Assembly (NCBI GenBank): GCA_020852835.1
Contig: JADZAC010000039.1
Coordinates: forward strand, 62,001-126,000
Direction of reading: 5' to 3'
Length of the DNA: 64,000 nucleotides
DNA from: Flavobacteriales bacterium
GTDB lineage: Bacteria > Bacteroidota > Bacteroidia > Flavobacteriales_F > PHOS-HE28
In this document: piece after piece, positions 2,981-40,288 of the stretch
Layout of the letters: every line of letters starts with the position of its first letter
Numbering within the stretch: the first letter of the stretch is position 1
Position numbers and translations under genes: made by a program
The notes under the pieces: model-generated
What the model saw: only the letters and a program-made list of their open reading frames with translations
Database searches by the model: none
Told to the model about the DNA's origin: nothing

Positions 2981-3130
2981 GCCCAACTCTCGCTCGCGTT
3001 TGTAACGCGGGCGTTTAATTCCGGTCGTTTGCAACGACCATCCCTGAACCACTTCCGCTGGCCACCTGCGCCTGTTGAATATGCGCTGCAAGCACGCCTG
3101 GACCTTCCCCCGCGTTGCAAATGCGGGGGA
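2981..3130. repeat. Dispersed ~135-bp element, copy 1 (inverted relative to copy at 22116-22266)
   Basis: Near-identical to reverse complement of 22116-22266; internal palindrome GGTCGTT-TGC-AACGACC. Confidence 0.9.
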
Positions 3131-3162: not shown

Positions 3163-3618
3163 TCAGTGCGTGCTGTCCATCACCCTCTCCACCTGCTCCC
3201 TCCCGAACCCCTTCCCCACAAAATACCGGATCACCTTTTCGCGACGGATGTAGCCATCGGTCTCCTGGGTGCGCTCCCAGCGCCTGGCCACGGCGTTGCG
3301 CAGTTGTGCTGTTTCCTCTTCGGCATCTATGGCCTTCAAGCCTGAGGCGATGCAGCTTGCCGAAACGCCTTTGACCTTCAACGCCAGCTCGATCTTCCTG
3401 CGGCCCCAGCCTTTCTGGCGGCTCTTGCTTACGGCGAAGTGCTCCGCGAAGCGCGCCTCGTTGAGGAAGCCTTCACCGATGAGCTGCGCGATGGTCTGCT
3501 CCACCTCTTCCTTGTGCCCGCCCGAGGCGTAGAGCTTTTCACGCACTTCCTGCTGGCAGCGCTCCTGGCGGGCGCACCAGGCTCGGGCTTTGTGAAGGAC
3601 GGTGTTCGCGGAACACAT
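3163..3618 (-). CDS. recX: Regulatory protein RecX
   Basis: ARAWCARQERCQQEVREKLYASG...LIGEGFLNEARFAEHFAVSKSRQKGWGRRKIELALKVKGV. Confidence 0.85.
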   Translation of the reverse strand: MCSANTVLHKARAWCARQERCQQEVREKLYASGGHKEEVEQTIAQLIGEGFLNEARFAEHFAVSKSRQKGWGRRKIELALKVKGVSASCIASGLKAIDAEEETAQLRNAVARRWERTQETDGYIRREKVIRYFVGKGFGREQVERVMDSTH

Positions 3619-29472: not shown

Positions 29473-29603
29473 CACCTTGCGGGAGTTGTGCAAAGATCAT
29501 GGCTGCTGATCGAAGCGTTGGTGAGGATCCTCACCAAACGGCGTAGAATGGTGCAGGAGCAGACCTGACCACTTGGATCAGACCACCGGTCAAACAAGCG
29601 GTT

Positions 29604-35428: not shown

Positions 35429-36169
35429 ATGGCGTTGCTATTCCACATTGGTCGGTATTTTATGCTGCTGGGGGAGGTCTTCTCCAAACCCGAGCGGCGC
35501 AGCGTATACTGGAAGCGTACCGTGGAGGAGATGGAGTTGCTGGGAGTCAAGAGCTTAGGTATCGTGTCCCTGCTCTCCTTGTTCATGGGGGCGGTAATCG
35601 CGATCCAGACCAAGACCAACATCGATTCCCCCTTGATCCCGTTCTATGTGGTGGGCTTCACGGTACGGCAGAGCACCATTCTGGAGTTCAGCCCCACGAT
35701 CATTTCGCTGATCCTGGCCGGAAAGGTGGGGTCGACCATTGCGGCGGAGATCGGATCCATGCGGGTACGGGAGCAGATCGACGCCTTGGACATCATGGGG
35801 GTAAACTCCGCTGGCTACTTGATCCTGCCGAAGATCCTCGCCACCGCGCTGATCAACCCGTTCTTGATCATCATCAGCATGTTCCTGAGCATCTTCGGCG
35901 GGTGGATGGCCGGGGTGTTCACCGGTATCATCAGCTCGGAGAACTACATCGCCGGCGTTCAGTGGGATTTTGACCCTTACATTGTTTCCTATGCCTTGGT
36001 GAAGACGGTGGTGTTCGCAGTGATCATCGCCACGGTCTCGGCGTACCAAGGCTACTACACCCGCGGGGGCACGCGGGAAGTGGGCATCAGCAGCACCCGG
36101 GCAGTGGTGTACAGCGATGTGGTGATCCTGATCGCCAACTATCTCCTTACCCAATTGCTGCTATTATGA
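35429..36169 (+). CDS. mlaE: MlaE-family ABC transporter permease
   Basis: YWKRTVEEMELLGVKSLGIVSLLSLFMGAVIAIQT...LILAGKVGSTIAAEIGSMRVREQIDALDIMGV. Confidence 0.92.
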   Translation: MALLFHIGRYFMLLGEVFSKPERRSVYWKRTVEEMELLGVKSLGIVSLLSLFMGAVIAIQTKTNIDSPLIPFYVVGFTVRQSTILEFSPTIISLILAGKVGSTIAAEIGSMRVREQIDALDIMGVNSAGYLILPKILATALINPFLIIISMFLSIFGGWMAGVFTGIISSENYIAGVQWDFDPYIVSYALVKTVVFAVIIATVSAYQGYYTRGGTREVGISSTRAVVYSDVVILIANYLLTQLLLL

Positions 36170-36927
36170 TCGAGGTGCGGGGCCTATCCAAGAGTTTCGA
36201 CCAGGTGGAGGTGCTTCAGGACATCAACGCAACCTTCAAGAAAGGGCGGGTGAACCAGATCATCGGCAAGAGCGGCAGCGGCAAGAGTGTGCTGGCCAAG
36301 TGCATCGTGGGGCTGATCCGGCCCACGCAGGGCGAGGTGGTCTACGATGGAGAGTCGTTCCAGGCCATGGACAAAGAACGAAAGAAGCTGCTTCGGCAGG
36401 AGATCGGCATGCTGTTCCAAAGCAGTGCCCTGTTCGACTCGCTCACCGTATTGGAGAATGTGCTCTTCCCCTTGCGGATGTTCGCTACCCAGAGTGAACA
36501 CGAGATGCGCGAGCGGGCTGATTTCTGCCTGAAGCGGGTGAATATCGTAGGCCAGGATGCCAAATACCCGGCGGAGCTCAGCGGCGGCATGCAAAAGCGC
36601 GTGGGCATTGCGCGGGCAATTGCCATGCAGCCCAAGTACCTGTTCGTGGACGAGCCGAACAGCGGCCTGGACCCCCAAACAAGCATCGTGATCGACAACT
36701 TGATCCGCGAGATCACCGAGGAGTTCGATACCACCACGATCGTGATCACCCATGATATGAATTCGCTTATGGGCATTGCCGATGAGGTGTTCTTCATCCA
36801 CAACAAGCGCCTGTGGTGGCAAGGCAGCCGGGATGAGCTGGCCCGCAGTGATAACCAAGAGCTGCAGGATTTCATCTTCGCGGGAAGCTTAATGCGCCAA
36901 GTACGCAAGGCGTTGCGCGGGGAGTAA
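36166..36927 (+). CDS. mlaF: MlaF-like ABC transporter ATPase
   Basis: GKSGSGKSVLAKCIVGL Walker A, LSGGMQKRVGIARAIAMQPKYLFVDEPNSGLDP; ATGA overlap with mlaE. Confidence 0.93.
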   Translation: MIEVRGLSKSFDQVEVLQDINATFKKGRVNQIIGKSGSGKSVLAKCIVGLIRPTQGEVVYDGESFQAMDKERKKLLRQEIGMLFQSSALFDSLTVLENVLFPLRMFATQSEHEMRERADFCLKRVNIVGQDAKYPAELSGGMQKRVGIARAIAMQPKYLFVDEPNSGLDPQTSIVIDNLIREITEEFDTTTIVITHDMNSLMGIADEVFFIHNKRLWWQGSRDELARSDNQELQDFIFAGSLMRQVRKALRGE

Positions 36928-36972
36928 GGCGGGAAGCGGCGTTGGAGGTTGGTACGGGCCACGTGGCGATCG

Positions 36973-37273
36973 TATGCATGGCCATACATGCCATGTGTGG
37001 ATTTTGTAGCCCCGATCTCCTTATTGTTTCAGGTGGTGACTGCATGTAAGTGTGTTATGATTATGCATGGCCATGCATACGTTGGGCAGAAGTGATAAGC
37101 TCGGGTGGTTCTTGCCACCGGGCAAGAGTTACGAGGCCAGAGGCCAGCGACTATCAGATGCATGGCCATGCATCTGATAGTCGCTGGCCGGGCGTACTGA
37201 AGGCATGCAAAATGTGTAATTCATTGTGAATCAAGGATTTTGGCTAGCATCGATATATGCATGGCCATGCATA
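36973..37273. repeat. Four-copy array of palindrome TATGCATGGCCATGCATA
   Basis: Copies at 36973 (one deviation), 37062, 37157 (core of 48-bp palindrome 37142-37189), 37256. Confidence 0.95.
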
Positions 37274-37354
37274 CGAAAAACAGGGCTGCTGCTCCCATAG
37301 CTGCGCCACTCGCTATTCTCCTCTCCGGTATGGAGGATAGAGATCCACCGCCAT

Positions 37355-37390
37355 AAAAAAAACCGCCCCACGAGTGTGGAGCGGTCTTTT
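37355..37390 (-). terminator. Intrinsic terminator of gcvP
   Basis: Reverse strand: ACCGCTCCAC-ACTC-GTGGGGCGGTTTTTTTT. Confidence 0.85.
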
Positions 37391-37414
37391 CTACAATGAA
37401 GTGCGAGGCCGAGA

Positions 37415-40288
<2,874 letters not shown>

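Follow-up and report, generated by a model that had tools for sequence, protein, structure and literature searches.

Repressors of the MarR family that regulate their own genes – Escherichia coli MarR, SlyA and MepR among them – combine a winged-helix fold with a dyad operator at their own promoter, one operator type serving each regulator. The operators of a local repressor are usually few and located at promoters. Dispersed intergenic palindromes, often paired 70–200 bp apart, with variable spacers and a link to a single-copy gene, are known from the REPIN/RAYT system (PMC3116915), and archaeal TrmBL2 (PMC4877046), one of the chromatin proteins derived from regulators, shows a wHTH family at work in chromosome architecture. 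The array described here has something in common with each of these. We found no report of comparable arrays in the open-access literature searched.

The window – the whole 64-kb stretch analysed, from a 3.44-Mb draft genome of 96 contigs, G000 – carries the palindrome ATGCATGGCCATGCAT in the spacer between mlaF and gcvP, with the following features:

36166–36927, + strand: mlaF, ABC ATPase, left flank
36928–37414, no strand: convergent intergenic spacer with the array, 487 bp
36974–36989, no strand: palindrome copy 1, ATGCATGGCCATACAT, one half-site change relative to ATGCATGGCCATGCAT
37063–37078, no strand: palindrome copy 2
37158–37173, no strand: palindrome copy 3
37142–37189, no strand: 48-bp perfect palindrome, copy 3 extended by unique arms
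37257–37272, no strand: palindrome copy 4
36990–37256, no strand: three inter-copy spacers of 73, 79 and 83 bp, mutually unrelated
~37354–37395: gcvP terminator hairpin, distinct from the array
37415–40288, − strand: gcvP, right flank, stop at 37415

The original prediction had described four palindromes, the first with one substitution, in steps of 89, 95 and 99 bp, lying between mlaF and the convergent gcvP terminator and having no further copy in the window. The coordinates bear out all of this: the spacer is convergent, lying between the mlaF (+) end at 36927 and the gcvP (−) stop at 37415; the terminator hairpin is separate; and a fifth copy was found nowhere else in the 64 kb, even allowing three mismatches. 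Pfam matches (MlaE, ABC_tran and GDC-P) confirm the gene assignments at the locus. Shuffled versions of the window held a mean of 0.82 copies and never reached four. The sequence flanking the copies varies from one to the next, the 18-mer TATGCATGGCCATGCATA being exact in copies 2 and 4 only, with copy 3 forming the middle of the 48-bp palindrome. The latter has a counterpart elsewhere (L129, 2979–3024), and such perfect palindromes of 46–48 bp, centred on the site and extended by unique arms, are far beyond chance; both probably arose as inverted duplications through template switching at the site. Another perfect palindrome in the window, TTGGTGAGGATCCTCACCAA, spans 20 bp at 29518–29537.

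Beyond the window, G000 holds 12 copies (≤1 mismatch) in just four clusters, on contigs C39 (the window), C38, C6 and C57, the last adjoining a contig end; the similar density throughout the genome that would have spoken against a dedicated array was not seen. On C38, the copies lie around a small gene (G000:C38:6908–7345) whose product matches Pfam PF01047 (E = 1.2e-13) and whose predicted structure resembles MarR-family structures, including DNA complexes, with MarR, MepR and SlyA among the matches; winged-helix domain and modelled fold both place it in that family. A palindrome copy lies 15 bp 5′ of the marR ATG, immediately upstream of a Bacteroidetes −7 box. The consensus of this promoter element is TAnnTTTG (PMC9723704 and others), which the TAnnTT boxes seen here resemble. 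The same order – palindrome, a few bases, TAnnTT box and marR ATG, with conserved spacing – recurs in nine genomes, so that the dyad over the marR promoter is conserved among orthologues there, though not in G002 and G022, which have no site at that promoter. Examined across 415 palindrome flanks, a TAnnTT box at the right distance occurs in nine, all of them marR promoters, and none abuts an array site outside marR. The protein has an N-terminal Cys at position 11, invariant in 12 of 12 aligned orthologues, which suggests that oxidants or electrophiles might release MarR from DNA in a form of redox sensing. A more distant MarR of the same genus (L237, in G067) has a different 24-bp palindrome, TCATTTGCTTGTACAAGCAAATGA, to either side of it (1399–1422 and 1878–1901).

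Across the genus, searches for the MarR protein and for the palindrome with variable arms, run separately, gave matching lists. Each of the 13 genomes with at least three palindromes encodes an orthologous marR, flanked by sites in every case, and none of the 25 without marR reaches three (Fisher p = 1.7e-9). Array-bearing genomes carry 3–36 sites at 4 to ~18 loci. G006 is the sole congener with the exact window 16-mer, and its copies surround the orthologous marR; among 85,462 GTDB species genomes, that exact 16-mer appeared in 33 stretches against a chance estimate of ~60, and therefore marks no wider family. Besides the bare promoters of G002 and G022, two genomes speak against a strict pairing of protein and sites: G058 has a MarR homologue, clustering with a paralogue, and no such sites, and G026 retains one relic array of two sites with no marR detected. 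G016 has a single site.

Sites are near-uniform inside each genome and differ by lineage: ATGCATGGCCATGCAT in the window genome; ATGTATGGCCATACAT in G008, G025, G033, G027, G060 and others; ATTCATGGCCATGAAT at all 21 sites of G018; and TTGCATGGCCATGCAA in G002, G004, G013 and G022. The recognition region of MarR reads LGQST in G018 only among the aligned orthologues, and LDQST or LDQTT in others, or LD-x-ST in the TTGCAT group; site sequence thus covaries with the regulator, outgroups included. Over 205 sites, the dyad reaches RAYRT-core-AYRTY, with a logo like that of a protein-binding site, and flank pairing past this point is at chance level save in seven long palindromes. In other families of the class (Bacteroidia), the genes of the best MarR relatives are preceded, and often also followed, by TTTGTATATACAAA-like palindromes, and palindromes of this type number merely 1–5 copies per genome in distant Bacteroidia. 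Because these outgroups have their own palindrome at marR in so few copies, the ancestral state would have been an ordinary autoregulated MarR, and the arrays are what is new in this genus. In two outgroup loci (L247 and L248), a second operator lies just 5′ of a gene, 3′ of marR, that is similar at its start to an NAD-dependent epimerase/NmrA-like protein and is a plausible target in the ancestral state. Elsewhere, a Flavobacteriales MAG (L029, ~552–672) has ACGCATGGCAATGCGT repeated in a short tandem array, most steps being 23 bp, close to an exact copy of the ATGCATGGCCATGCAT dyad, and Bacteroidales genomes (L022, ~3096; L036, ~197) have AAAGATGCATGGCCATGCATCT hairpins, one of them amid tRNA genes, which look like unrelated REP elements.

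That the palindrome is the operator of the G000 MarR is well supported by sequence evidence, namely co-occurrence, covariation by lineage, position at the marR promoter and the outgroup palindromes at marR. The binding array for a dimeric regulator that had been proposed for the window therefore gains strong support, a MarR-family protein being encoded beside another array of the same genome. A MarR winged-helix dimer would bind the core ATGCATGGCCATGCAT within an operator of ~26 bp, RAYRT-ATGYATGGCCATRCAT-AYRTY. As one operator overlaps the marR promoter, MarR presumably represses its own gene; the remaining operators form intergenic arrays apart from promoters, like that of the window. Our best guess is that MarR binds these arrays cooperatively at multiple sites, structuring or insulating intergenic DNA, notably between convergent genes, and that array operators also titrate the protein. 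We regard this account as a whole – an autorepressor with arrays that insulate or organise and titrate – as probable.

The placement of the arrays is strictly intergenic, with steps mostly of 90–220 bp. Counting one representative per orthologous locus and excluding marR loci, they occupy 13 convergent, 8 divergent and 11 tandem gaps, against 19, 57 and 104 among other gaps, a convergent enrichment (13/32 vs 19/180, p = 6e-5) that rests on approximate gene calls. Species at ~85% nucleotide identity keep array positions and often exact steps, most spacers having no remaining similarity. Each of the 12 arrays of G033 has its counterpart in G008, in which the sites persist, steps are often identical and spacer similarity ranges from 88% down to none detectable. 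We claim no special constraint on spacer length (181/181, 208/208, 218/218), since gene-to-array distances look similarly stable, and hypermutation of the diversity-generating type was rejected on an ordinary substitution spectrum (transition fraction 0.50, without base bias). Arrays lengthen through tandem duplication. Distant lineages use the same spacers, such as the 3′ side of aroE (G008 group and G018) and mlaF–gcvP (G000 and G004). At the latter, the spacer measures 860 bp in G004, which carries its own TTGCAT array, and 56–158 bp in G013, G022, G028 and G032, which have none.

Such differences raise the question of mobility. If the palindrome–spacer–palindrome units and the palindrome–marR–palindrome cassette had spread like REPINs, the sites would be ends for a mobilising enzyme, and sites do bound marR and cluster, as a rule, in groups of at least two. 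Moreover, the marR block of G008 (~1 kb) is missing in G023 and G026, where the flanks are joined as an empty site; together with the variable mlaF–gcvP spacer and at least seven unrelated marR contexts, this indicates that arrays and gene are gained or lost as units. In G018, G008 and G013, homologous spacers turn up at separate loci, and within one array of G018 (L158, contig C26) the spacer at 3087 is the exact reverse complement of that at 3426, pointing to recent inversion of a palindrome-bounded segment. The original suggestion of a hot spot for a palindromic element thus gains some support, in that the arrays are inserted sequence when compared with relatives and a few of the spacers reappear at more than one locus. 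A k-mer enrichment test of the spacers gave weak matches only. REPIN-like spread is nevertheless somewhat unlikely: dispersed intergenic doublets are present, but neither a Y1 transposase flanked by the repeats nor a long doublet hairpin is; the five Y1 (RAYT) genes of G000 all lie away from sites, for which reason a RAYT link was rejected; neither folding nor self-pairing of the spacers exceeds chance (mean z −0.13 for folding, z 0.16 for self-complementarity); arrays keep their positions between G008, G025 and G033; and a MarR protein is not a nuclease. Phage carriage was rejected too, as viral contigs had neither a MarR relative nor the site.

A classical regulon, in which every array controls transcription of its neighbours, would fit the arrays in divergent spacers and the neighbour genes that recur across lineages, yet we consider it improbable. 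The avoidance of promoter boxes and the convergent bias argue against it; they speak for binding that serves architecture, insulation or titration, or else for REPIN-like spread in the past with the arrays retained afterwards. A CRISPR-like array is very improbable, and so are RNA hairpins acting as terminators or processing sites: the dyads are perfect and the clustered repeats have differing spacers, but no T-run follows the sites, gcvP has its own terminator, and structured RNA in the spacers was rejected, no fold exceeding chance and Rfam matches being marginal, all below family gathering scores. Nor do the spacers look acquired from mobile elements, those of the window having no match among phages and plasmids and those of other genomes being inherited or tandemly duplicated. 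The idea of parS-like partition sites, to which a symmetric site in clusters had lent some appeal, finds no support and has next to no probability, given the covariation with MarR, the dispersal of the site across 4 to ~18 loci and its absence from most congeners. By comparison, non-promoter, convergent placement favours the sponge or nucleoid-organising roles also proposed.

Returning to the MarR account, the matching pair of site and repressor that each species has for itself suggests that a repressor has spread its sites over the chromosome for a purpose other than ordinary promoter control. Its boldest form – a self-repressing MarR turned organiser of genome-wide spaced arrays that lie mostly apart from promoters and lean towards convergent gene ends, as a lineage-specific bacterial system of insulation or architecture with sites and protein coevolving in concert – is a tentative proposal that we hold at rather less than even. 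What matters more broadly is that one regulator's operator has been multiplied into conserved arrays that, at up to dozens of sites, have followed changes in the specificity of the protein; the many species and the clean controls for absence make this a natural system for asking how a transcription factor turns chromosome-organising or selfish-like. Set beside E. coli MarR, SlyA and MepR, the system differs in having 3–36 operators per genome, arranged as intergenic arrays with no abutting promoter. Unlike in REPIN/RAYT, the associated gene encodes a MarR regulator rather than a Y1 transposase, spacer hairpins are lacking and the sites are complete dyads that match the one at the regulator's own promoter. 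Compared with TrmBL2, binding here would be site-specific, at arrays, within an architecture that is so far hypothetical.
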